NCBI RefSeq assembly: GCF_001422985.1
Contig: NZ_LMNL01000001.1
Span: 774,009 to 838,008, forward strand
From: Methylobacterium sp. Leaf117
Lineage (GTDB): Bacteria; Pseudomonadota; Alphaproteobacteria; Rhizobiales; Beijerinckiaceae
DNA: 64,000 nucleotides
Direction: 5' to 3'
The notes under the pieces are model-generated. The model was not told the DNA's origin, searched no databases, and was given only the letters and a program-made list of their open reading frames with translations. Both the position numbers and the translations under genes were made by a program. Below, piece by piece: positions 10,857 through 23,568 of this stretch (position 1 is the first letter of the stretch; each line of letters starts with the position of its first letter).

Positions 10857-12680
10857 TCAGGCCGACTCGGCCGCGAGGTAGGCGCGCCAGCCCCCGTACC
10901 GGGTGATCTCGGGGGCGCCCGCCACCGCATGCGCCTCGCACAGGAAGCCCGAGACGGATTCGCCGTCGGCCAGGGTGATCTTGCCGATGCCGAGCGGCGC
11001 CGGGATCGCGGCGGCGAAATGCCCGAAAGCCGCCGGCTCGAGGCCCCAGACCTCGACCTCCAGGCCCGGGCCATCGAAGCCGGGTGCGCGCACGAGGCCG
11101 GGCTTCGGCGGCACCGTACCGGGCAGGGCGTAGAGCCGGTAATCGGACGCCGTCCGGGTGGCGCGCAGAAAAGTGGCGCCGAGATCCTGAAGTTGGTGGT
11201 TCAGGGCGAGCCCGGTGAGATGGGCGCCGACCACCACCAGGGGGATCTGCCCGGAGGCGACGGGCGGAACCCGGCTCGCCTCGGGCAACGCGCGCCCGCG
11301 CTCGATGCCCATGCCCGCGCCCGCGCCCGCGCCCGCGCCCAGCGCGCGATGCAGCGCATCGGCCCAGGGTGCCAGTGCCTCGTCGCTGAAGCCCGGGCCG
11401 ACCAGCATCACGCCGGCCGGCAGCCCGTCGCGGCGGAACCCGGCCGGGACCGCGATGGCGGCCATGCCGAGCAGGTTGGCGAAATTGGTGTAGCGGCCGA
11501 AATGACTGTTCCGCGCGATCGGCTCGGCCTGCATCTCGGCCACCGTGTAGATGGTCGGGGAGGTCGGCAGCAGCAGCACGTCGAGATCGGCCAGGATGGT
11601 GTCGGTGCGGCGTTTCAGGGCCTCGAAGGCGTAGCGGCCGCGGAAGGCGTCGACCGCGCTGTAGCGCTTCGCGGATTCGACGATGGCGCGCACGCTCGGG
11701 TCGAGGGCGTCGGGGTGGTCGGCGTAGAATTCGGCGATGGCCGCCAGCCGCTCGGCGACCCAGGGGCCGTCATAGAGCAGCGCGGCGATAGCGCGGAACG
11801 GCGCGTAGTCGAACGGCACCGCGACGCCGCCGAGGCGCTCGAGCCGGGCGATGGCGCCGTCGTAGAGCGCCGCCGTCTCGGCATCGCCGTAGAACTCCCG
11901 CTCGGCGGGGCCGAGCACCCCGAAGCGCAGGCCCGTGCCCGGGAGCGGATGCGGCCGCGCGGTCCGCGAATAGGGATCGGCCGGATCGAAGCCCTCGGCG
12001 ATCCGTCGCACGGCGATGCCGTCGCCGACGGTGGCGGAGAAGATCGTAATGCAGTCAAGGCTGCGGCAGGCCGGGACAAGGCCGGTGGTGCTGAGCGCCC
12101 CCGGCGTCGGCTTGATGCCCACGAGATTGTTGAAGGCCGCCGGCACGCGGCTGGAGCCGGCGGTGTCGGTGCCGAGGCTGAAACAGGCAAGCCCCGCCGC
12201 CACGGCCACGGCCGAACCGGAACTCGATCCGCCGGAGACGAAATCGGGGTTGAACACGCTGCGCGGGGCACCGTAGGGCGAGCGGGTGCCGTTCAGGCCG
12301 GTGGCGAACTGGTCGAGGTTGGTCTTGCCCGTCACCAGGGCGCCAGCGGCCTTCAGGCGCGCCACCACCGCGGCATCGCGCTCCGGCACGGAGGCGAAGG
12401 CCGGGCAGGCGGCGGTGGTGGGCAGGCCCGCCACATCGATGTTGTCCTTGACGGCGAAGGGCAGGCCCCAGAGCGGCAGGGAATTCGGCTCCGGGTGCGC
12501 CTGCATCAGGGCGCGGGCCGCCGCGATCAGGTCGGCGCGCGGCACCGGCGTGATGAAGATGGCCGGGTCGGACGCGGCCGCCATCCGCTCGGCGACGAAC
12601 TCGGCGAGACCGACCGGGTCGAGACTCCCGTCGGCGAAGGCCGCGCGCAGACTCGCGATGTCCAGGATCGTGGGCAGCAT
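10857..12680 (-). CDS. atzF: Allophanate hydrolase
   Basis: Hydrolyses allophanate to ammonium and carbon dioxide, the last step of guanidine or urea degradation by the ATP-dependent route. The 607-aa protein has an amidase-signature domain (about 1-440) with the Ser-cisSer-Lys triad visible: Lys78 in FAVKDN, the GGSSSGS loop near 150-156 and the nucleophile Ser near 176 in DTAGSSR. A separate C-terminal domain (about 450-607) is the allophanate hydrolase C domain. A low-complexity Ala-Gly run (GAGAGAGAG) links the two. It starts 4 bp after the carboxylase stop with AGGAG well placed upstream. Last gene of the operon. Confidence 0.95.
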   Translation of the reverse strand: MLPTILDIASLRAAFADGSLDPVGLAEFVAERMAAASDPAIFITPVPRADLIAAARALMQAHPEPNSLPLWGLPFAVKDNIDVAGLPTTAACPAFASVPERDAAVVARLKAAGALVTGKTNLDQFATGLNGTRSPYGAPRSVFNPDFVSGGSSSGSAVAVAAGLACFSLGTDTAGSSRVPAAFNNLVGIKPTPGALSTTGLVPACRSLDCITIFSATVGDGIAVRRIAEGFDPADPYSRTARPHPLPGTGLRFGVLGPAEREFYGDAETAALYDGAIARLERLGGVAVPFDYAPFRAIAALLYDGPWVAERLAAIAEFYADHPDALDPSVRAIVESAKRYSAVDAFRGRYAFEALKRRTDTILADLDVLLLPTSPTIYTVAEMQAEPIARNSHFGRYTNFANLLGMAAIAVPAGFRRDGLPAGVMLVGPGFSDEALAPWADALHRALGAGAGAGAGMGIERGRALPEASRVPPVASGQIPLVVVGAHLTGLALNHQLQDLGATFLRATRTASDYRLYALPGTVPPKPGLVRAPGFDGPGLEVEVWGLEPAAFGHFAAAIPAPLGIGKITLADGESVSGFLCEAHAVAGAPEITRYGGWRAYLAAESA

Positions 12681-12684
12681 GGGT

Positions 12685-15600
12685 TCAGATCTCCTCGATC
12701 ACCGCGACCAGGTCGCCGCCGCGCAGGGTCCGGCCGGGCTGGGCCCGGATCTCCCGCACGGTCCCGGCCACGGGCGCGACCACGGCGATTTCCATTTTCA
12801 TCGATTCCAGGATCGCCACGGTGTCACCCGCCGCGATCCCGTCGCCCGGGGCTACCAGAAGCTTCCAGACATTGCCCGGCACCGTCGTCGGCACGCCGAC
12901 GCAGCCGGCCGGGATCGCATCCTCCGTGCCGTCCGAGATCGCCTCCTCGGCCACGAAGCTGTCGAGCCCCTCCGCCTTCCAGCGCTGGCGCTCGGCTTCG
13001 TAGGCCGCCTGCTGGCGCGCCTTGGCGGCCGTGATCTCGGGCGCGTTCGCCGCCAGTTCGGCGCGGTGCGCCGCATAGGAGAACGTCCCGTCCTCGATCG
13101 TCACGGGATAGGCCCCGTGCGGGAAGGCGGCGCGCGCTTCGGTCAGTTCGGCCGGCTCGACCGGGAAGAACCGGATGCGATCGAAGGGGCGCAGCAGCCA
13201 GGGATGGCCCGGCACGAACTCCCGGGTGGTGCGCCAGGTGTTCCACATCTGGATGGTGCGGCCGAAGAGCTGGTACCCGCCCGGCCCCTCCATGCCGTAG
13301 ATGCACATGTAGGCGCCGCCGATGCCGACGGCGTTTTCCGGCGTCCAGGTGCGGGCGGGATTGTACTTCGTGGTCACGAGGCGATGGCGCGGGTCGACCG
13401 GCGTCGCCACCGGTGCCCCGAGATAGACGTCGCCGAGCCCCATGACGAGGTACTGGGCGTCGAAGATGATGTCCTTGACCGCCTGCTCGTCGGCGAGCCC
13501 GTTGATCCGGCGGATGAACTCGATGTTCGAGGGGCACCACGGCGCATTGGGGCGCACCAGCTCCTGGTACTTGCGCATGGCCAGCGCCGCCTGCGGGTCG
13601 TTCCAGGACAGCGGCAGGTGGACGATCCGGCTCTCGACCGTGACGTCCTCCACCCGCGGCAAGCCGGCCTCGATCTCCCGCAGGGCGCCGAGGAGGCGCT
13701 GCCGGGGCAGGGCTGCGCCGTCGTAGTGGATCTGCAGCGAGCGGATGCCGGGGGTCAGATCGATCAGCCCCGCCAGCCGCGCCTCGGCGACCGCCCGGGC
13801 CAGCAGGTGGACGCGCATCCGGATGCCGATGTCGAGGGCCATCGGCCCGTACTCGACGAGCAGGTTGTCGTCGCCCTGGCGGCGGTAGACCACCGGGACG
13901 GGACCGGATTCGTCCCGGGCCAGGATGGGCGAGCCGCGCCGGATCGCAGGCGTCGGGAGGCCGGCGGTTGGCTCCACCGCGGCGTCGTCCTCCGGCCGTG
14001 CCACGGCCTCGAACCGGACCCGGTCGCCGGGGCGGAGCTGACCCATCTTCCACAAATCGTCGCGGGCGATCACCGCCGGGCAGACGAAGCCGCCGAGGCT
14101 AGGGCCGTCCGGCCCGAGCAGGATCGGCATGTCGCCGGTGAAGTCGATGGCCCCGATGGCGTAGGCGTTGTCGTGCAGGTTGGACGGGTGCAGGCCGGCC
14201 TCGCCGCCATCGGCCCGGGCCCAGCGCGGGGTCGGCCCCATCAGGCGGATGCCGGTGCGGGCGGAGTTGAAATGCACCTCGTAGGTCGCCGAAAACAGGT
14301 CGGCGATGTCGGCGTCCTGGAAGAAGTCCGGCGCCCCGTGCGGGCCGTAGACCACCCCGAGCGTCCAGTCGTGGGTCAGCGGCGCCGGCGCCGGGGTCTC
14401 GGCCGGGACTTCCGGGACTGCCCCGAGATGCAGCACGTCGCCGGCCTTCAGCACGCCGGTGGCGTGACCGCCGAAGGCCCCGAGGGCGAAGGTGGCGCGC
14501 GATCCGAGTACGATCGGCGCCGTGAGCCCGCCGTGCAGGGCGAGGTAGCTGCGCTGTCCGGGGCCGGCGATCGCCCCGAGGAGGAGGGTCTGGCCGGCCC
14601 GCACGGGGAAGGCGGCGTCGTGGGGCTGCGCGATGCCGTCGAGGGTCGCCGGCATCCGCGCCCCGCACAAAGCCACGATCGTGTCGGCGTGGAAGCGCAG
14701 GGTCGGGCCGGAGACGGTGAGCTCGAGAGCACAGGTGTCGGGCGGGTTGCCCACCCGAGCATTGGCCGCGCGGAACGAGCGCGCATCCATCGGCCCGCTC
14801 GGGGGCACGCCGACGTGCCAGAGCCCGATGCGCCCGGGCAGCTCCTGCAGGCTCGACTGGGCACCGGGCAGCAGCACCTCGACGCTGCGCGGATGAAACG
14901 CGAAGTCGCGCAGCGCGGTGGTGGCGACCCGGCCCTCGGCGAAGAAATCGGAGCCCGCGATGGTGCGCAGGTAGTCGCGGTTGGTCTCGATGCCGGACAC
15001 CGCCGTCCCGTCGAGGGCCGCGCGGAGGGCCGCGAGCGCGGCCGGACGGTCGGCCCCGGTGACGATGATCTTGGCGAGCATCGGATCGTAGAACGGCGTC
15101 ACCTCGGTGCCGGTCTCGATCCAACCGTCGATCCGGGGGCCTTCGGGAAAGCGCACCTCGGTGAGCAGGCCGGCGCTCGGGGCGAAGTTGGCGTGCGGGA
15201 TCTCGGCATAGAGCCGCGCCTCCATGGCGGCGCCCCGCGGCACCAGCGGACCGGCATCCGCCAGGACGTCCTCGCCGGCGGCCTGGCGGATCATCCACTC
15301 GACGAGGTCGATGCCGAACACCGCCTCGGTCACCGGATGCTCGACCTGGAGGCGGGTGTTGACCTCCAGAAAGGCGAAGTCCTCGCGCACCGGATCGTAG
15401 ATGAACTCCACCGTCCCGGCCGAGGCGTAGGCCACGCTCGCCCCCAGGGCGACGGCCGCCGCGTGCAGGCGGGCGCGCACCGCATCGGGCAGGTTCGGCG
15501 CCGGGGTCTCCTCGATCACCTTCTGGTTTCGGCGCTGGAGCGAGCAGTCGCGTTCGCCGAGCGCCACAACGCGGCCGCGGCCGTCGCCGAAGATCTGCAC

Positions 15601-16227
15601 CTCCACGTGCCGGGCCTCGCCGACGAAGCGCTCGAGATAGACCCGGGCGTCGCCGAAGCTGGCCCGCGCCGTCCGCTCGACGGCGCCGTAGTGCTCGGAC
15701 AACTCCGCGGCGGAAGCGCAGAGGCGCATGCCGATGCCGCCGCCGCCGGCCGTGCTCTTCAGCATCACCGGATAGCCGATGGCCTCGGCCTCGCGCAGAG
15801 CCGTCGCGAGGTCGGGCAGCAGGCCGGTGCCGGCCAGGAGCGGCACCCCGCTGGCCCGGGCGAGGTCGCGTGCCGTGTGCTTGAGTCCGAAGGCGGAGAG
15901 GTGCTCGGGCTTGGGGCCGATGAAGACGATGCCCTCGTCCGCCAGCCGCTCGGCAAAGGCGACGTTCTCGGACAGGAAGCCGTAGCCCGGATGCACCGCT
16001 TGCGCGCCGGTGGCCCGGCAGGCGGCGATCACGGCCTCGACGTCGAGGTAGCTTTCGGCGGCGGGCGCCGGACCGAGACGGACTGCCCGGTCGGCCTCCA
16101 GCACGCCGCGGGTGAAGCGGTCGGCATCGGAATAGACCGCCACCGAGGCGATCCCCATGCGGCGGCAGGTTCGCACGATGCGGCGGGCGATCTCGCCCCG
16201 GTTGGCGATCAGGAGGGTGTCGAACAT
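12685..16227 (-). CDS. Biotin-dependent carboxylase, 'urea carboxylase' family; probably guanidine carboxylase
   Basis: A 1180-aa biotin enzyme that carboxylates an amidine or amide nitrogen using ATP and bicarbonate. Domains in order: biotin carboxylase (about 1-450; LLIANRGEIARRI, GGGGIGM, HVEVQIFGD, EVNTRLQVEHPVTE), the two KipA/KipI-like carboxyltransferase halves (about 490-1080), and a C-terminal biotinyl domain with Lys near 1144 in ESMKMEI. The true start is the ATG at 16227, overlapping the upstream TGA as ATGA; the open frame continues upstream but is not coding there. Annotated widely as urea carboxylase. Because it follows two DUF1989 genes and a guanidine-II-type riboswitch, guanidine is the more likely substrate (product carboxyguanidine). 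Substrate is inferred from context, not from active-site residues. Confidence 0.93.
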   Translation of the reverse strand: MFDTLLIANRGEIARRIVRTCRRMGIASVAVYSDADRFTRGVLEADRAVRLGPAPAAESYLDVEAVIAACRATGAQAVHPGYGFLSENVAFAERLADEGIVFIGPKPEHLSAFGLKHTARDLARASGVPLLAGTGLLPDLATALREAEAIGYPVMLKSTAGGGGIGMRLCASAAELSEHYGAVERTARASFGDARVYLERFVGEARHVEVQIFGDGRGRVVALGERDCSLQRRNQKVIEETPAPNLPDAVRARLHAAAVALGASVAYASAGTVEFIYDPVREDFAFLEVNTRLQVEHPVTEAVFGIDLVEWMIRQAAGEDVLADAGPLVPRGAAMEARLYAEIPHANFAPSAGLLTEVRFPEGPRIDGWIETGTEVTPFYDPMLAKIIVTGADRPAALAALRAALDGTAVSGIETNRDYLRTIAGSDFFAEGRVATTALRDFAFHPRSVEVLLPGAQSSLQELPGRIGLWHVGVPPSGPMDARSFRAANARVGNPPDTCALELTVSGPTLRFHADTIVALCGARMPATLDGIAQPHDAAFPVRAGQTLLLGAIAGPGQRSYLALHGGLTAPIVLGSRATFALGAFGGHATGVLKAGDVLHLGAVPEVPAETPAPAPLTHDWTLGVVYGPHGAPDFFQDADIADLFSATYEVHFNSARTGIRLMGPTPRWARADGGEAGLHPSNLHDNAYAIGAIDFTGDMPILLGPDGPSLGGFVCPAVIARDDLWKMGQLRPGDRVRFEAVARPEDDAAVEPTAGLPTPAIRRGSPILARDESGPVPVVYRRQGDDNLLVEYGPMALDIGIRMRVHLLARAVAEARLAGLIDLTPGIRSLQIHYDGAALPRQRLLGALREIEAGLPRVEDVTVESRIVHLPLSWNDPQAALAMRKYQELVRPNAPWCPSNIEFIRRINGLADEQAVKDIIFDAQYLVMGLGDVYLGAPVATPVDPRHRLVTTKYNPARTWTPENAVGIGGAYMCIYGMEGPGGYQLFGRTIQMWNTWRTTREFVPGHPWLLRPFDRIRFFPVEPAELTEARAAFPHGAYPVTIEDGTFSYAAHRAELAANAPEITAAKARQQAAYEAERQRWKAEGLDSFVAEEAISDGTEDAIPAGCVGVPTTVPGNVWKLLVAPGDGIAAGDTVAILESMKMEIAVVAPVAGTVREIRAQPGRTLRGGDLVAVIEEI

Positions 16228-16868
16228 CAGGCCGCGTCCCGGATCGTGACCCGGATCGGCGTCGGGTTGAAGCCGTTGCAGGGGTTGTTGATCTGCGGGC
16301 AGTTCGAGATCACGCAGATCACGTCCATCTCGGCCGTGACCTCGACATAGTCGCCGGGCGCCGAGACGCCGTCGACGATGGCGAGATCGCCGTTCTGCTC
16401 GATCGGCACGTTCATGAAGAAGTTGATGTTCGGCGGGATGTCGCGCTTGGTCAGCCCGTACTTGGCGACCTCCAGAGCGAAGTTCTCGCGGCAGGCATGG
16501 AGGTACTTCGTGGCGTGGCCGAAGCGGACGGTGTTGCTCTCGCACGAGCAGGCCCCGGCCGAGGTGTCGTGCCGCCCGCAGGAATCGGCGGTGACCCGGG
16601 CCATGATCCGGCCCTCGCTGGACACCAGGGGCGTGCCGACGGTGACGTAGGCGGCGCCCTGCACCCGCACGGTGTCCTGGGAGGAATAGCGCTCGCCCAT
16701 GTCGTCGGCCCGGTAGAACAGGGTGTCGACCGCCTGGCAGCCTTCGCTGTCGGTGATGCGGATCGTCTGGCCCCGGCGCACGAGGCCGGACCAGGGTGCC
16801 TGGGCCGGCACGGTGACGTCGAGGATCACGGTGACGTCGAGGATGGTGGGTGCGTCGGTCATCGTCAT
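16227..16868 (-). CDS. DUF1989 protein, probable carboxyguanidine deiminase subunit
   Basis: A 213-aa DUF1989 protein, the shorter member of the pair long called urea carboxylase-associated proteins. Work on the family (Biochemistry 2020, Wackett/St. Maurice groups, from memory) showed that the pair forms a carboxyguanidine deiminase that releases ammonia from carboxyguanidine to give allophanate. The conserved DSCGRHD motif and several cysteines (ACSCESN, CENC-like spacing further on) probably provide metal or catalytic ligands. The N-terminus contains a short duplication, ILDVTVILDVTV, encoded by a repeated sequence near 16815-16855. It starts 6 bp after the upstream DUF1989 gene and overlaps the carboxylase start as ATGA, so all three are one translational unit. 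Confidence 0.9.
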   Translation of the reverse strand: MTMTDAPTILDVTVILDVTVPAQAPWSGLVRRGQTIRITDSEGCQAVDTLFYRADDMGERYSSQDTVRVQGAAYVTVGTPLVSSEGRIMARVTADSCGRHDTSAGACSCESNTVRFGHATKYLHACRENFALEVAKYGLTKRDIPPNINFFMNVPIEQNGDLAIVDGVSAPGDYVEVTAEMDVICVISNCPQINNPCNGFNPTPIRVTIRDAA

Positions 16869-16874
16869 CTCCCC

Positions 16875-17681
16875 TCAGAACCCGGCCCGGGCGTTGTTCT
16901 CGAAACCCCGCACGGCCTCCGGCGTGGCCGTGCGGCACAGGTCGTCGGCCCCCGGGACGGGCGCCCGGAAGCGCGTGACCTGGACCGGGTTCGGCGCATA
17001 GGTCGGAGCCGGATCGAGGGGATGCGGGCAGTTCGACAGGGTGACGGTCAGGTCCATCTCGGCGCGCAGGTCGACGAAGTCGCCGGCCCTGCGTCCGGCC
17101 TCGTTCCACACGAGGCGGCCTTCCGGCCCGACGCCGACGGGCGCGAAGACGCTGACCAGGGCCGGGATGTCGCGCCGGTCGAGCCCGGCCTTCAGGGCGG
17201 CGAGGACGAGGTTGTCGCGGGTGTTGCGGTGGGGGCCGCCGGGATAGCGCGCGGCGTTGGACGCGGCGTTCGACCCCCCGGCCAGCGAATCGTGGGCGCC
17301 GCAGGAATCCTCCGTCAGCGCGAGCATCACCCGGCCCATGTCGGAGAACAGAACCCGGCCCTTCTGCAGGGCGGTGGTCCACTGCACCTTGACGGTGTCG
17401 GCGTAGTTCAACCGCTCGGACGGGTCGGCCGCGCTCCAGGCCACCAGGGCGACGCTTGCCGGGCCGTGCGCGAGGGCGATGCGCAGGGCTTCGCCGCGCG
17501 CCAGATGCGTCGTCCAGTACCAGCCTCCCGGGATGGTCTCCACATGGAGGGCCGCGCCGGGGAGCGGCAGCCCGTGCGGGGAGGGCGGCGGCAGGGCGCG
17601 GGGCGCCTGATCCTGCCCGGCGCGCTTCAGCGCTTCGTAGCGCTGCCGGTACGCGGCGATCGTCTGGTCTGTGGTGGTCAT
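16875..17681 (-). CDS. DUF1989 protein, probable carboxyguanidine deiminase partner subunit
   Basis: A 268-aa DUF1989 protein, the longer member of the pair, with the matching motif EDSCGAHDSLAGG and a conserved SNCPHPLDP near the C-terminus. By family knowledge it combines with the 213-aa paralogue downstream to deiminate carboxyguanidine. Its ATG at 17681 is preceded by GAGGAA and lies 19 nt after the second hairpin of the riboswitch described at 17701-17756, which places it as the gene directly controlled by that RNA. Which of the two paralogues is CgdA and which CgdB cannot be decided here. Confidence 0.9.
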   Translation of the reverse strand: MTTTDQTIAAYRQRYEALKRAGQDQAPRALPPPSPHGLPLPGAALHVETIPGGWYWTTHLARGEALRIALAHGPASVALVAWSAADPSERLNYADTVKVQWTTALQKGRVLFSDMGRVMLALTEDSCGAHDSLAGGSNAASNAARYPGGPHRNTRDNLVLAALKAGLDRRDIPALVSVFAPVGVGPEGRLVWNEAGRRAGDFVDLRAEMDLTVTLSNCPHPLDPAPTYAPNPVQVTRFRAPVPGADDLCRTATPEAVRGFENNARAGF

Positions 17682-17700
17682 GCCCGTTCCTCAAACGTCC

Positions 17701-17756
17701 GCCGGGTCGTCCCGGCCGATGGTGAGCCCTGTTCGCGGGGCCGGGTCGTCCCGGCC
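17701..17756 (-). promoter_or_regulatory. Candidate guanidine-II (mini-ykkC) riboswitch
   Basis: On the minus strand the leader of the DUF1989 gene folds into two near-identical hairpins. P1 (17756-17739) is a perfect 7-bp stem GGCCGGG/CCCGGCC with an ACGA loop; P2 (17716-17701) is a perfect 6-bp stem GCCGGG/CCCGGC with the same ACGA loop. The linker is 22 nt. Tandem hairpins with ACGR tetraloops closed by G-C pairs are the defining pattern of the mini-ykkC RNA, shown to be a guanidine-sensing riboswitch. The Shine-Dalgarno (GAGGAA) follows P2 by a few bases, so ligand binding would most simply control translation start. The element sits inside the operon, 28 nt after the glutamine synthetase stop. 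Confidence 0.85.
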
Positions 17757-17784
17757 GGGCAGGTGAGGGGGTTTCGGAGGGCGC

Positions 17785-19158
17785 CTAGAACAGGTGGCTG
17801 TAGCGCTCGATCTCCCAGGCGCTGACGGTCAGATGATAATCCTGCCACTCGGCGGTCTTGTAGCGGATGAACTCGTCGCGCAGGGCCTTGCCCAGGGTCC
17901 GTTCCACCAGGGGATCGGCCGCGAAGGCCTCCACCGCCTCCATCAGGGTCTGCGGCAGGAAATCGATGCCGCGGGCGGCGCGCTCGGCGTCGGAGAGATC
18001 GTAGAGATTGTCCTCGTTCGGCGCGCCGGGATCGATCCGCTCGCGCACGCCCTCCAGCCCGGCGGCGAGCACCAGGGCGGCGGCGAGGTAGGGGTTCACG
18101 GCACCGTCCGCGTTGCGGCTCTCGCAGCGCCCGCCGCCGGCCGGCACCCGCACCGAGTTGGTGCGGTTGTTCGAGCCGTAGGAGTTGAACACCGGCGCCC
18201 AGGAGAAGCCCGCCATCGCGCCCTGGCGCACGAGGCGCTTGTAGCTGTTCACCGTCGGAGCGAAGGCGGCGCAGAGGGCGCGGCCGTGCTTCAGCACGCC
18301 GCCGATGAAGTGATAGCCGGTTTCGGTCAGACCGAGGCCGCGCGGATCGGTCGAGGGGTCGCACGCGAAGGCGTTGCGGCCGGTCTCGCGGTCGAACAGC
18401 GACATGTTGAAATGGGCGCCGTTGCCGGTGCGGTCGGCGAAGGGCTTCGGCATCATGGTGGCCAGCAGACCCTCCTCCTTGGCGTAGTGCTTCGCCATCA
18501 TGCGGAAGAAGGTCAGCCGGTCGCACATGGTCAGCGCATCGGCGTAGTTGAAATCGAACTCGAACTGGCCGCAGGCATCCTCGTGGTCGAAGGAATACAG
18601 GTCCCAGCCGAGGTCGTTGATCGTGGTGGCGACCTTGTCGAGCCAGGAGAAGTTGTCGGTGAAGCCGCGGACGTCGTAGCAGGGCTTCACCAGCTTATCG
18701 TCCGGCACCGGCGTGTGCAGCGAGCCGTCCGCCGCCTGCCGCAGCAGGAAGATCTCGCACTCGATGCCGAGGTTGAAGCCGAAGCCCATCGCCTCCGCCT
18801 GGGCCAACACGGATTTCAGCGCGACACGGGTGGAGAGGGGGTAGGGCTTGCCCTGGAAGGTGAGGTCGGCCGGGGTCCAGGCCAGCTTCGGCTCCCAGGG
18901 CAGCTGGATCACGTGGGCGAGGTCCGGCACCGAGGCCAGTTCGTCCTCGTTGGGGGCCTGGCCGAGGCCGTCGAGGGCGTAGCCGGTGTAGCGCTCGGAG
19001 CCGGCGGCCATCTGGGGCAGGTGGTCGATGGGCACGACCTTGGCCTTCTGGGCCCCGTGGATGTCGACATAGGCGCCGATGACGTATTTCACGCCCTTTC
19101 CCCGCAGGTCGTCCTGCAGCGCGCGGATATGGGGATCGATGTCAGTCGTGTGAGCCAC
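17785..19158 (-). CDS. glnT: Glutamine synthetase-like protein, GlnT/type III
   Basis: A 457-aa member of the glutamine synthetase superfamily most like rhizobial GlnT, which ligates ammonia or an amine to glutamate with ATP. Visible elements are FSFDHE-like metal site ([16 protein letters not shown]), the ATP-site loop [11 protein letters not shown], and the glutamate-binding segment [11 protein letters not shown] with [11 protein letters not shown]. The start is a GTG at 19158, overlapping the end of the creatininase-like gene by 17 bp. In this operon the simplest role is capturing ammonium released by deiminase and allophanate hydrolase; ligation of another amine (gamma-glutamyl-amide synthesis) is an alternative because GlnT proteins differ from ordinary GlnA. 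Confidence 0.88.
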
Positions 19159-19945
19159 GGGCTCGCTCCTCTGGACCGGATGGGTCGTCGGGTGGGGACA
19201 GGGGCGGGGTCTCGGCGAGGCCGCGCCGGACGAGAGCGGCGAGGTCCGCGACCATCCAGCCGAACAGGCGCTCGCCCTCGGCGAGGCTCGCCTGCGACGG
19301 ACGGCCGGTGACGCCGTTGCGGCTGGTGCGGTTGACCGGGTGGGCGAACACCAGCCCCTCGGTCCGGTCGGGATCGTCGGCGGCCGTGATCCGGTCCGGG
19401 CGGACCAGGGCCGGGGCGGTCGCCATCATCAGCGCGGTCTCGGCGGCATTGGCGTGCCAGTCGGCGGCATCGGCAAAATGGGCCGCGCGCACCCGCTCGC
19501 TGATCGTCGCCGAGTTCACCAGGGCGACCATCAGGTCGTCATGAGCGGCGCGCAGCATCTCCAGGGCACAGCGCAAGGGGGCCGCGTTGGTGACGTGGGC
19601 GTTGACCAGGAACAGGCGCCGGACGCCCGAATGATAGGCGGAGGTGCCGATCTGCGTTACCACCTGGGTCATCACCAGGGGATCGAGGGTGATGGTGCCG
19701 GGCCAGCGCCGGCTGTGGCCGAGCGAGCAGCCATAGGGCAGGGTCGGCAGCACCGGCACGCGGGTCTGCGCCGAGACCGCGTGGGCGAGGCGCTCGGCCA
19801 GCACGAAATCCATGCCGCAGCCGAGATGCGGTCCGTGCTGCTCGGTGGCGCCCACCGGCAGGATCGCGGCCTGCGACGCGGCCGCGAGGTCGCCCGGGAT
19901 CTCCTCCCAGGTGCGGTCGGCCCAGAGCAGGGCGGAGGCGTCCAT
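19142..19945 (-). CDS. Creatininase-family amidohydrolase
   Basis: A 267-aa protein of the creatinine amidohydrolase superfamily (cyclic amide or formamide hydrolases with a two-metal site). Metal ligands appear as Glu and His in [10 protein letters not shown], Asp in GMDFVLAE, and His/Glu in DWHANAAET. The usual NGHGGN loop is replaced by NAHVTN. The start used is ATG 19945, which overlaps the TGA of the ABC ATPase gene as ATGA; a GTG one codon earlier is possible. Its position inside a guanidine operon suggests hydrolysis of a guanidino- or creatinine-like compound, but substrate is not readable from sequence. Confidence 0.85.
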
Positions 19946-20883
19946 CACTCGACCTCGTCGCCGGTCGGCGCCATGCGGGTGACGAGGGCGGTGGCGGCGG
20001 GCTCGTCGGCATCGGCCTCCGCCTCGTCCTTCGCCGGGTGGATCAAGGCGTCGAGCCGGGCGCGGGTGGCGCGGAATTCCGGCCCCAGCATCTGGTCCGG
20101 GCTGCGCGGGCGCGGCACCGGCACCTCGATGAGTTCAGCCACCTCGCCCGGATGCGCCTTCAGCACCAGGATGCGGTCGGCGAGGTACACGGCCTCGTCG
20201 AGGTCGTGGGTGATGAACACGATGGTGATGTCGATCTTGCGCCAGATCTCGATGAGGTAGGCCTGCATCCGGGCCCGCGACTGGGTGTCGAGGGCCGAGA
20301 ACGGCTCGTCCATGAGGAGGATGCGCGGCCGGGTGGCCAGGGCGCGGGCGATGGCGACGCGCTGCTTCATCCCGCCCGAGAGCTGGTGCGGGTAGGCGTC
20401 CGCGAAGGCTTCGAGGCCGATCAGCGCCAGCCATTGCCGGGCCTCGCGCTCGGCCTCGCGCCGGGGGGTGCCGTTCTCCTCCAGGCCGAAGGCGACGTTG
20501 CGCAGGACGCTGAGCCAGGGGAACAGCGTGTAGCCCTGGAACACCATGCCACGATCGGCGCCGGGGCCGGAGACCGGCACGCCGCCGACCCGGACCACGC
20601 CGGAACTGGCCGTCTCGAGCCCGGCGAGAATGCGCACGAAGGTGGACTTGCCGCAGCCGGACGGGCCGACCACGCAGAGGAATTCCCGCCGGTGGGTGAC
20701 GAGATCGATACCCCGCAGGGCCGTGGTCTCGCCGCCGGCGGAGCGGAACACCTTGCCCAGCCCCTCGACGCTCAGGGCCACGTCCCGGCTCTTCAGCTTG
20801 GCGAAGCGCGCCCGCACCGGCTCGCATTGGGTGCGGTAGTCGCAGGGCTCCACCGGCAGGGGAATCGTGCTCCCGCGCGTCAT
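19945..20883 (-). CDS. ABC transporter ATP-binding protein, nitrate/taurine (NitT/TauT)-type
   Basis: A 312-aa cytoplasmic ATPase energising the importer encoded by the two upstream genes. Walker A is GPSGCGKST, the signature is LSGGMKQR, Walker B is [13 protein letters not shown] and the switch histidine is in THDLDEA. The start at ATG 20883 overlaps the permease stop (ATGA); a longer open frame upstream is not coding. The C-terminal extension after about residue 265 is acidic and not part of the nucleotide-binding domain. By operon context the cargo is probably guanidine or a guanidino compound. Confidence 0.93.
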
Positions 20884-21956
20884 GCCTCGCTCCGATCGTA
20901 GGGGAACAGCCGGCGCCCGATCCACGCCAGGGCAAGGTCGGTGGCCGATCCGACGAGGCCGATGACGAGGATCGCCGCGTAGACGTTGTCGAAATGCTGG
21001 TAGCGGGCCTGCTGCGTGATGAAGAAGGTGATGCCCGACGAGGTGCCGATCAGTTCGGCGACGATGAGGTAGGTCCAGGCCCAGCCCAGCAGGATGCGCT
21101 GGTCGCGGTAGAGCTGCGGCAGCATTGCCGGCACGATCACGCGGCGGATCAGGCGGAGGTTGCGCGCCCCGAGGGTCAGGGCGGCCTCGATCAGCAGCGG
21201 CTCGATCCGCCGCGTGGTGTTGGCGATCACCAGCACCTGCTGGAAGAAGGTCCCGATGACGATGATGGCGATCTTCGGCCCGTCATAGATGCCGAGGATC
21301 GCCACCATCAGCGCCCCGAAGGCGGGGGCCGGCATGTAGCGGACGAACTCGATCACCGGTTCGGTGAGGCGGGCGAGCGTCGGCTGCGCTCCGCACAGGA
21401 TGCCGAGCGGCACGCCGACCACCGACGAGAGCAGGAAGCCCCAGACGATGATCTGGATCGAGTGCCACAGGCTCAGAGGCAGGCGGATCGCGTCGCGCTG
21501 GGTCGGCGTCGCGGTGAGGGAGGTCCAGAGCGCCGCCGCGACGGCGTGGGGCGTGGGCAGGTAGACCGGGTTGGCGGGAATGCCGACAGGCGCCGCGCCG
21601 TTGGCGGCCCCCGCGCGCGCGACCTCCTCCGCGAAGGCGGCCTTCGGCACCCGCATGCCGGGCTCCATCCAGGCCACATCGCCGGGCTCGGTCACCTCCA
21701 CCAGGGGATGCCACAGGAACGGCACGTAGGAGACCGCCGCCCAGGCCAGGACCGGCAGCAGGAAGGAGAGCACCGCCAGCACGGTCCGGCGCCGGGTCGA
21801 GAGCGGCCGGGCGACCCCGATCCAGGAGCGGCGCCGGGCGCCGGTCCGCACCGGCGCGGCCATGGCCTGCTCCGGTCGGGCACTGGTCGCCTCCGCTGGC
21901 GCGCCGGCCGCCGGAATGGGGCGCTGCCTCTCGTCGCTGCGCGGCGCGGCGCTCAT
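20880..21956 (-). CDS. ABC transporter permease, NitT/TauT-type
   Basis: A 358-aa inner-membrane subunit with one N-terminal helix (about residues 58-78), a periplasmic stretch (80-150) and the BPD_transp_1 core with five to six helices. The coupling motif region is [20 protein letters not shown], which matches the EAA loop that contacts the ATPase. The start ATG 21956 overlaps the stop of the substrate-binding protein gene (ATGA). The N-terminal 45 residues are a low-complexity Ala/Arg/Pro segment, unusually long for this family. Confidence 0.92.
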
Positions 21957-22966
21957 TTGCCGTCCGTCAGCGCCGGATCGATGTAGCCCTTCACGTCCTG
22001 TGCGGCTTTGTAGACCTCGTACCGGACGTTGAAGGCGTCGGCGTAGCGGCTCGACCCGTAGAGCGAGCCGAAGCCCTCGGCATCGGCCATCACCTTGCGG
22101 CCGTCGGCCAGGGTCAGGAGCCGGGTGCCCTTGAGGAAGCGGGTGAAGGTCGCGGGCTCGATGCCGACCTTGCCCGCCATGATGGCGACGGCGTCGGCCT
22201 GGGTCTTCGGGTCCTGGATGTAGGCGACCACCTTGTCCCAGACGGCCACGAACTTGATCCAGTCGGCGCGGCGGGCGGCGAGGCTCGCGGGCGTCACCGT
22301 GACCACGTCGTAGATCAGGCCGGGCTCGTCGGCGGAGGTGTAGAGCGGCCGGGCCCCGGCGGCGCCCTTCATCGCCTGTCCGGCGATGGGCTGCCAGGCG
22401 CCGATGGCCGACACGTCCCCGGAGGCGAGGACCTGGGGCGTCTCGTTGGTCTTGACGTTGACGAAGGTGACGTCGGTCTCCTTCAGGCCGATCTTGTTCA
22501 GCCCGTTGATGAGGAGCAGCTGCTCGACCAGGCCGACTTCGAGACCGACCTTCTTGCCCTTCAGCTCGGCCAGCCCCTTCACGCCCGGCTTGCCGACGAT
22601 CATGTCGTTGCCGTTCGAGTAGTCGGTCAGCATGATCATGACGTTTCGGGCGCCATTGCCGCCCATCACGAGGGCATCGCCGTTGGTGCAGGTCACGGCG
22701 TCGAGCTTGCCCGCCGAGAAGGCATCCATGGAGGCGGAGTAGTCGAACCACTCGAACGTGACGTCGAGGCCGGCCTGCTTGAGCCAACCCTTTTCGATGG
22801 CGACCTGCCAGGCGACCCAGCCGGGCCAGTCGCTGTAGCCGATGCGCAGGGGCTCGGCGGCGTAGGCGGGTGTGACCGGGCCGGGCAGCACTGCGAGCAG
22901 GCCCAGGGCCATGAGGCCGCCGGCGACGTTCCTGCGGGTGGCGGCGAGAACCGAGGACAGGCGCAT
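21953..22966 (-). CDS. ABC transporter periplasmic substrate-binding protein (probable guanidine/urea-type importer)
   Basis: A 337-aa periplasmic binding protein of the NMT1/SsuA/NrtA-like type. A Sec signal peptide is visible (positively charged start, hydrophobic core around residues 14-30, cleavage near TPAYAAEP). The mature protein begins with LRIGYSDWPGW, typical of the family, followed by AIEKGWLKQAGLDV. It is the first gene of the operon; GGAG lies 8 nt before the ATG. Proteins of this kind are regularly found with 'urea carboxylase' and DUF1989 genes. The divergent regulator and the repeat at 22984-23012 lie immediately upstream. Confidence 0.92.
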   Translation of the reverse strand: MRLSSVLAATRRNVAGGLMALGLLAVLPGPVTPAYAAEPLRIGYSDWPGWVAWQVAIEKGWLKQAGLDVTFEWFDYSASMDAFSAGKLDAVTCTNGDALVMGGNGARNVMIMLTDYSNGNDMIVGKPGVKGLAELKGKKVGLEVGLVEQLLLINGLNKIGLKETDVTFVNVKTNETPQVLASGDVSAIGAWQPIAGQAMKGAAGARPLYTSADEPGLIYDVVTVTPASLAARRADWIKFVAVWDKVVAYIQDPKTQADAVAIMAGKVGIEPATFTRFLKGTRLLTLADGRKVMADAEGFGSLYGSSRYADAFNVRYEVYKAAQDVKGYIDPALTDGK

Positions 22967-22983: not shown

Positions 22984-23012
22984 CGTAATACGATCATTGG
23001 AAATCGTAATAC
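22984..23012. promoter_or_regulatory. Candidate operator between the transporter operon and the NikR-like regulator
   Basis: Within the 104-bp divergent region there is a direct repeat CGTAATAC (22984-22991 and 23005-23012) spaced exactly 21 bp, two helical turns. The same stretch contains the inverted repeat TACGAT-N8-ATCGTA (22989-22994 with 23003-23008). Ribbon-helix-helix tetramers such as NikR bind separated half-sites of this kind. The location, 18 bp before the binding-protein ATG, fits repression or activation of the operon. Binding is an inference. Confidence 0.55.
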
Positions 23013-23070
23013 CGACGGGATTTCACGCATACAAAAGCCGTGCCAGAATGGGCGAGTGGGAGGAAATCAG

Positions 23071-23568
23071 ATGTCCGACAACGCGACCGCGACGACCGGC
23101 CCGGAGGAGGCCGAGGGGACGCGCAAGCGGCCGGTGAGCCGGATCAGCCTGTCGCTGTCCGAGGACCTGCTCTGCGAACTCGACACCATGGTGGGCGAGC
23201 GCGGCTTCGCCAGCCGCTCCCAGGCGGTGGCGACGATCCTGCACCGCTCCCTGGTGGAGCACCGGCACGAGGTCGGCGACCGCGTCATGGTGGGCACCAT
23301 CACGCTCTGCTACGACAACCTCGCCCATGGGCTGCAGCAGCGGCTGGCCGAATTGCAGCGCCGCTTCATCGCCGAGGTGATCTCCTCGCTGCACGTGCAC
23401 CTGATGCACAACCAGACCCTGGAGGTCGTGCTGGTGCAGGGTCCGGCCGACACGCTCCAGACCATCGCGGACGCGATGATCACCGAGCGCGGCGTCATCT
23501 CGGGGCGGCTCGAACTCGTGGCGGCTTTGATCCCGCCGATCCACCCGTTCCCCGGGGCGCCGGCGTGA
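23071..23568 (+). CDS. NikR-like ribbon-helix-helix transcriptional regulator
   Basis: A 165-aa protein with an N-terminal ribbon-helix-helix (RISLSLSEDLLCELDTMV then GFASRSQAVATILH) and a C-terminal ACT-like ligand domain, the architecture of nickel regulator NikR. In NikR the square-planar nickel site uses three His and one Cys. Here LHVHLMHN keeps the two His of the HxH pair, but the Cys position reads Thr (NQTLEV) and the His that comes from the partner subunit appears as Arg (LQRRF). It therefore may not sense nickel. It is divergent from the guanidine-type operon, with GGGAGGA before ATG 23071, so it probably controls that operon. Confidence 0.85.
   Translation: MSDNATATTGPEEAEGTRKRPVSRISLSLSEDLLCELDTMVGERGFASRSQAVATILHRSLVEHRHEVGDRVMVGTITLCYDNLAHGLQQRLAELQRRFIAEVISSLHVHLMHNQTLEVVLVQGPADTLQTIADAMITERGVISGRLELVAALIPPIHPFPGAPA

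Follow-up and report, generated by a model that had tools for sequence, protein, structure and literature searches.

A predicted guanidine-II riboswitch with an additional helix inside a guanidine degradation operon of Methylobacterium, and the varying regulators at the operon head

Known guanidine-II systems and the operon of Methylobacterium sp. Leaf117

Class-II guanidine riboswitches bind two guanidinium ions cooperatively through loop-loop kissing. Published reports, including PMC12508155, call the class a translational ON switch, and PMC7544219 gives 7-40 nt as the range of the linker between the hairpins. Internal class-II elements have also been described: in Vreelandella boliviensis guanidine-I leads the operon and the class-II riboswitch is located between cgdB and gca (PMC12508155), and in the enterobacteria Raoultella, Klebsiella and Erwinia class I accompanies the importer and deiminase genes, whereas the carboxylase genes that come next are associated with class II (PMC12186494).

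We analysed a 64,000-nt stretch of contig NZ_LMNL01000001.1 from Methylobacterium sp. Leaf117 (hereafter the window), in which a comparable gene row is encoded on the minus strand. The first gene encodes an ABC substrate-binding protein (SBP; 21953..22966; TIGR03427, 134.9 bits, under the cut-off of 333.9), followed by an ABC permease gene with a putative start (20880..21956, taken to be the last 358 aa of a longer ORF), the transporter ATPase gene (19945..20925, from family search), a creatininase-family gene (19142..19948; PF02633, below NCBIfam cut-offs) between the ATPase gene and glnT, and glnT itself, which encodes a type III glutamine synthetase and directly precedes the riboswitch (17785..19158; TIGR03105, 647.2 bits). 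Beyond the RNA lie a cgdA-like gene for a predicted carboxyguanidine deiminase subunit (DUF1989, UAAP1; 16875..17681; TIGR03425, 282.7 bits, cut-off 205.95), a cgdB-like gene (UAAP2; 16227..16868; TIGR03424, 320.5 bits, cut-off 284.7), a guanidine/urea carboxylase gene (gca/uca; 12685..16230; TIGR02712, 1754.5 bits) and an allophanate hydrolase gene (atzF; 10857..12680; TIGR02713, 774.6 bits). These downstream genes exceed curated family cut-offs, and their profile scores bear out the original prediction, made from the sequence of this stretch, that deiminase, carboxylase and hydrolase genes lie behind an RNA element situated within a same-strand gene row, 28 nt past the glnT stop.

As in V. 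boliviensis, class II is found within a guanidine carboxylase operon, but here it precedes cgdA, and guanidine-I was not found in the genome. As in the enterobacterial operons, the importer comes first and guanidine-II stands before later genes; however, the deiminase genes tied to guanidine-I in those operons are located behind guanidine-II in the window, where a class-II element placed before them would gate the whole degradation branch. Relative to Rfam family RF01068, the RNA has the same pair of GC-rich ACGR hairpins, a linker of the 7-40 nt class and a place beside the ribosome site of guanidine genes, but it stands inside a gene row, and it possesses an additional helix, here termed P0, with a 5' strand that the Rfam model does not cover. 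We estimate at roughly 85% the probability that this element acts as an intra-operonic translational ON switch of cgdA-cgdB-gca-atzF, with the operon head setting import and P0 as a probable latch.

Class and placement of the internal RNA

The element comprises hairpin P1 (17739..17756, minus strand; GGCCGGG-ACGA-CCCGGCC, 7 bp) and hairpin P2 (17701..17716, minus strand; GCCGGG-ACGA-CCCGGC, 6 bp), both with ACGA loops and both identified from sequence, the RF01068 match and covariation, P2 additionally from a model built on relatives. Between them runs a 22-nt linker (17717..17738, minus strand), inside the class range. P1 begins 28 nt after the glnT stop (end 17785), and P2 is followed after 19 nt by the cgdA ATG at 17681, with a Shine-Dalgarno-like (SD) GAGGA read from the sequence at 17688..17692 (minus strand). 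This geometry agrees exactly with that originally described, including the stem lengths, loops, linker and gap before the first DUF1989 gene. Both ACGR tetraloops are closed by G-C pairs in the window site and in relatives, and the element adjoins the ribosome site of guanidine modification genes, namely the cgdA SD.

Taken singly, the window sequence is unremarkable. Its two copies of the apex GGGACGRCCC are not unusual by themselves, because the DNA is GC-rich and at least two copies also arise in 46 of 100 shuffles, and single-sequence folding gave a stability no better than that of shuffles (z -1.26; -0.72 in a second run). A direct-repeat search of 17600-17900 returned a single family, an exact 18-nt repeat formed by the two hairpins. 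With the apex expected by chance and the fold unexceptional, the case rests on comparison.

Covariance searches provided this comparison. With permissive filters, a genome search with RF01068 scored 17702-17757 at 34 bits against a curated cut-off of 32 (E 9e-5 per genome), the sole one of 20 matches in the 5.3-Mb genome to exceed the cut-off. Under stricter filters the site is missed: the default Rfam scan of the window gave no match there, the scan of locus L001 (also at the stricter default filters) likewise missed it, a sensitive scan of the site returned two partial matches alone (20.2 and 17.3 bits), and a class-level RF01068 run matched 38 of 385 genomes with none in the Leaf117 genome. 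A covariance model constructed from 23 relatives, with the window left out, scored 17770-17701 at 51.2 bits (E 1.6e-9), and its next-best place in the genome (22.2 bits) was the antisense of the riboswitch site itself. Among 75 distinct aligned rows, the P1 stem is formed in 95.2% of cells and that of P2 in 99.5%, and both-sided changes occur at 4 pairs of P1 and 3 pairs of P2. Whole-structure scores, from an alignment that includes P0, were reached by 0 of 500 shuffles; model R1 and alignment A3 (83 rows) were fitted to the structure with P0, 6 of the 83 rows represent loci picked after P0 had been seen, and the E cut-off applied gave 83 matches that do not include L010, L028, L032, L053 and L100. 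Given the RF01068 score, the relative-built model and the covarying stems, the window site is by sequence and structure a guanidine-II (mini-ykkC) riboswitch, with ligand binding predicted. The class originally proposed is thereby upheld by a match over the Rfam cut-off (34 bits, obtained with permissive filters only, default scans missing the site), by the relative-built model (E 1.6e-9), and by covariation of both stems across homologous loci.

We also surveyed relatives of the downstream protein, 80 of 547 being listed (Methylobacterium group, Xanthobacter, Rhizobium, Agrobacterium, Devosia and others). A loose rule detects two or more ACGR hairpins upstream of cgdA in 77 of the 80 and a strict rule in 76, the latter failing in L025, L028, L032 and L053, and the complementary YCGT loop pair was found on the gene strand in 0 of the 80. 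These counts bear on an explanation without a riboswitch, in which a regulator binds the tandem dyads as DNA, or the dyads form a repeat- or terminator-like element. The hairpins are indeed near-identical GC-rich dyads, and paired changes would preserve the symmetry of a DNA operator as well, but we regard this explanation as very improbable: the ACGR pair keeps to the gene strand and its YCGT counterpart is missing from it, the stems vary but most loop bases are constant, the position ahead of the SD is retained across the fetched relatives, and no terminator-like T-run follows the hairpins.

A second question concerns the ligand, as a guanidine-II fold might chiefly recognize a substituted guanidine such as methylguanidine. 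According to PMC12508155, the V. boliviensis class-II riboswitch binds methylguanidine as well as guanidine, and the window operon contains a creatininase-family gene and an SBP under the urea-type cut-off. On the other hand, the loop bases of the window RNA match those of the guanidine-II class, and the family search, which put names to eight operon proteins, identified among them no dioxygenase comparable to the methylguanidine hydroxylase of PMC12508155. Such a main ligand thus appears unlikely, and guanidine is the predicted one.

The original prediction had considered the internal position unusual, a view that the relatives contradict. Among the matches listed, the nearest same-strand gene within 900 nt upstream of cgdA is an ATPase gene in 66 of the 80 and a glutamine synthetase (GS) gene in 13, L028 being the single exception, with neither match before cgdA. 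Since 79 of 80 listed relatives have such a gene before cgdA, the internal position is the rule among them, and internal guanidine-II elements had already been published (PMC12508155 and PMC12186494). Several loci show individual organizations. In L014 a cupin gene (PF05899; L014:8422-8904) is inserted between the glutamine synthetase gene and the riboswitch; L037 (L037:7215-8913) retains both guanidine-I and guanidine-II with short permease and glutamine synthetase matches and missing ATPase and creatininase genes; and in the Methylobrevis locus L028 (8608-8714) guanidine-I stands directly before cgdA, without a guanidine-II pair by the strict rule. Elsewhere, in L105 (1501-2010), L107, L114 and L118, guanidine-II matches in which P1 is short (GAGG-ACGA-CCTC) lie before genes with a chlorhexidine efflux transporter domain, the domain (PF05232) having been checked in L105 and the other three judged from similar protein starts.

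The internal position would be only apparent if a promoter inside glnT produced a separate cgdA-cgdB-gca-atzF transcript, of which the RNA would be an ordinary leader. In 11 of 13 Methylobacterium-group loci the GS gene and cgdA are separated by 452-791 nt (with the cupin gene in L014), which leaves room for a promoter, and L037 keeps the riboswitch despite its reduced upstream genes. The window differs from those 11 loci, with only 28 nt from the glnT stop to P1; no sigma-70-like promoter and no terminator was found in 16800-18000, no sigma-54-like site was found in the last 900 nt before cgdA, and the scans, which covered sigma-70-like and sigma-54-like promoters, placed a good sigma-54-like site at the operon head. 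Among relatives, weak sigma-54-like sites (2-3 mismatches) occur in this 900-nt interval in 5 of 37 (L028, L029, L037, L038 and L059). We therefore view an internal promoter as a possible but rather unlikely explanation, and prefer a riboswitch within one operon, by which the cgdA-to-atzF genes would be controlled separately from the upstream importer genes.

Helix P0 and the putative off state

Comparison of the loci points to a further helix, P0, formed by the 4 nt before hairpin 1 (GCCC; 17757..17760, minus strand) and GGGC within the linker (17729-17726). With a fixed register, P0 of at least 4 bp can form in 74 of 77 cgdA loci (missing in L010, L063 and L081), this register having been fixed after the sequences had been looked at. 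Among 62 distinct cgdA-locus sequences P0 is present in 59, compared to 48.8 +- 2.1 of 62 expected when linkers are swapped among loci (59 reached in 0 of 2000 permutations) and 18.6 +- 3.4 of 62 after shuffling of the letters within linkers (0 of 500). An earlier permutation (66 of 69 distinct sequences versus 54.9 +- 2.1; 0 of 2000) included 7 loci that had been picked after P0 was seen in them, and for this reason it was repeated on the cgdA loci alone. The two strands vary together, as GCCC/GGGC, GACC/GGTC, GCCC/GGGT, CCTC/GAGG and ACCC/GGGT. P0 likewise forms in 71.3% of the cells of the model alignment, where each of its 4 pairs shows both-sided changes; this alignment was fitted to the structure with P0 and misplaces part of the Methylobacterium rows. 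By free duplex energies, a weak test, 12 of 1000 permutations were at or below the observed mean.

Beyond cgdA loci, P0 is less regular. Among 16 of 30 class-wide loci, with minus-strand loci left unturned and exporters mixed in, it was present in 12, a level reached in 207 of 1000 permutations. After turning, 27 of the 30 were parsed (L112, L113 and L117 being dropped) and sorted by eye from their first codons, and P0 of at least 4 bp was found in 5 of 12 exporter, 2 of 4 BTP-type and 9 of 11 other loci.

When P0 is formed, the linker left free before P2 measures at most 11 nt in 74 of 74 loci (median 3; 9 in the window), whereas spacers of at least 13 nt occur in the great majority of class-II riboswitches, according to PMC5486947. 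Given this shortened free linker, we infer that P0 competes with loop kissing and so acts as an off-latch, although it could alternatively be a plain structural extension. In the proposed mechanism, P0 would tie up the linker in the absence of ligand, probably holding the hairpins apart. Guanidine imported by the ABC system would be bound by both ACGA loops, which would then kiss, and kissing would open P0 and free the cgdA SD for translation of the downstream genes. Their enzymes would convert guanidine to ammonium, a possible substrate for the glnT product. The guanidine-II RNA thus probably turns on translation of the cgdA-to-atzF branch. A search for a conserved anti-SD using base-pair probabilities in 77 loci revealed no single place that stands out, mean SD pairing being 0.26 with the linker, 0.14 upstream and 0.24 downstream (0.11, 0.32 and 0.18, respectively, in the window); because no conserved anti-SD emerged, the expression platform is one that we infer.

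Regulators at the operon head

Whereas the internal RNA is widely retained, the head of the operon varies. Of the 80 listed relatives, 22 were scanned whole with Rfam: guanidine-I leads the gene row in 8 of the 13 Methylobacterium-group loci and in all 9 from other groups, and guanidine-II scores over its cut-off in 18 of the 22 (not in L010, L028, L032 and L053). The five inside the group without a guanidine-I head are L009, L010, L014 and L018, together with L015, where the contig begins within the permease gene. In the window, as in L009, L010, L014 and L018, a NikR-like regulator gene (23071..23568, plus strand; PF08753, NF003381) is instead divergently oriented from the SBP gene. A search of the Leaf117 genome with the guanidine-I family (RF00442) gave no match at E up to 1, before the SBP gene or elsewhere, and the internal RNA is the sole guanidine-I or guanidine-II match over the Rfam cut-off in this genome.

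Across the genus, cgdA was identified in 24 of 111 genomes. Guanidine-I exceeds its cut-off in 13 of the 111, each time within about 7 kb of cgdA, with matches below the cut-off in 6 further genomes, and an orthologue of the NikR-like gene (85-100% identity; next best homologue 38%) occurs in 10, Leaf117 included. The two sets do not overlap and both fall within the 24 cgdA genomes, one of which, G393 with a divergent cgdA, has neither. The NikR-like gene lies near cgdA on one contig in 8 of the 10; in G392 and G474 it is located on a separate contig. In a CgdA tree, 7 NikR-type rows grouped (support 82/82) with two rows that were then unlabelled, and the window row was unplaced. A single head-swap event in the genus appears likely from this clustering of labels.

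The NikR-like protein exceeds the cut-offs of PF08753 (81.1 over 22), NF003381 (108.7 over 105) and NF002815 (87.6 over 83), with 79.5 bits for TIGR02793 against a cut-off of 175.45. In NikR, the high-affinity nickel ligands are His76, His87, His89 and Cys95, as given in PMC7055735; aligned to these, the NikR-like protein has Arg, His, His and Thr. Among its best 120 of 1577 homologues (E 1e-20), 115 were readable at these places, and Thr occupies the Cys95 place in 114 of 115 and His the His76 place in 3 of 115. Several homologues are named nickel-responsive by their sources. With two of the four ligands replaced, usual nickel sensing by this protein is doubtful.

Comparison of heads revealed a candidate operator for the NikR-like protein, a 28-bp near-palindrome, GTATTACGAT-N8-ATCGTATTAC (22985..23012, minus strand), found at this place alone in a genome-wide search allowing up to 3 mismatches. 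The form GTATTACGAT-N8-ATCGTAYTAC is common to 9 NikR-type heads (window, L009, L010, L014, L018, L150, L154, L155 and L158), of which those of L014 and L154 may be near-copies, and an exact-arm search found the near-palindrome in 0 of 13 guanidine-I-type Methylobacterium-group heads. The E. coli NikR operator is GTATGA-N16-TCATAC, spanning 28 bp (PMC7055735). The window system resembles E. coli NikR in its NikR_C domain and in the 28-bp operator-like span (GTATTA-N16-TATTAC in the window) but differs from NikR in the Arg and Thr that replace His76 and Cys95, and in its predicted target, a guanidine operon. A UreD gene (PF01774; 23576-24514, minus strand) adjoins the NikR-like gene, as it also does in L009 and L158.

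The head of the window also contains a sigma-54 promoter-like site, CTGGCACG-N4-TTGTA (23030..23046, minus strand), with 1 mismatch to the sigma-54 consensus by which all such sites in this study were judged. In the window, L009, L010 and L014, sites with 1-2 mismatches precede the SBP match by 81-83 nt, and L018 has one with 3 mismatches, 168 nt before a partial SBP match. Outside the genus, all 8 loci tested have a site with 0-2 mismatches whose start is 28-30 nt upstream of guanidine-I, and in L028 one with 2 mismatches stands 29 nt before guanidine-I. Good sites were found in 0 of 8 Methylobacterium-group guanidine-I heads tested, and equally good ones in 31 of 3000 random 250-nt stretches. 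Import would probably be set by nitrogen state, through sigma-54, and by the NikR-like repressor in the NikR-headed lineage, and by guanidine-I in other lineages. A more speculative proposal, which we think improbable though worth stating, is that this lineage exchanged its guanidine-I RNA for a NikR-fold repressor without a nickel site that senses guanidine or nitrogen derived from it, while the internal guanidine-II RNA, latched by P0, stayed the gate to degradation.

Within the literature collection searched, we found no paper tying NikR to guanidine in Methylobacterium, none tying guanidine riboswitches to sigma54, none on urea carboxylase together with creatininase and a riboswitch, and none on mini-ykkC in rhizobia. 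P0 and the head swap go beyond what we found in print; the RNA itself is of a known kind, and the novelty lies in the P0 helix and the exchange of head sensors. The same operon in close relatives, with two head regulators and one constant internal riboswitch, offers a clean natural comparison, from which one can ask why one operon uses two guanidine riboswitches and what can replace one of them, and P0 provides a testable hypothesis for the off state of a guanidine-II switch.
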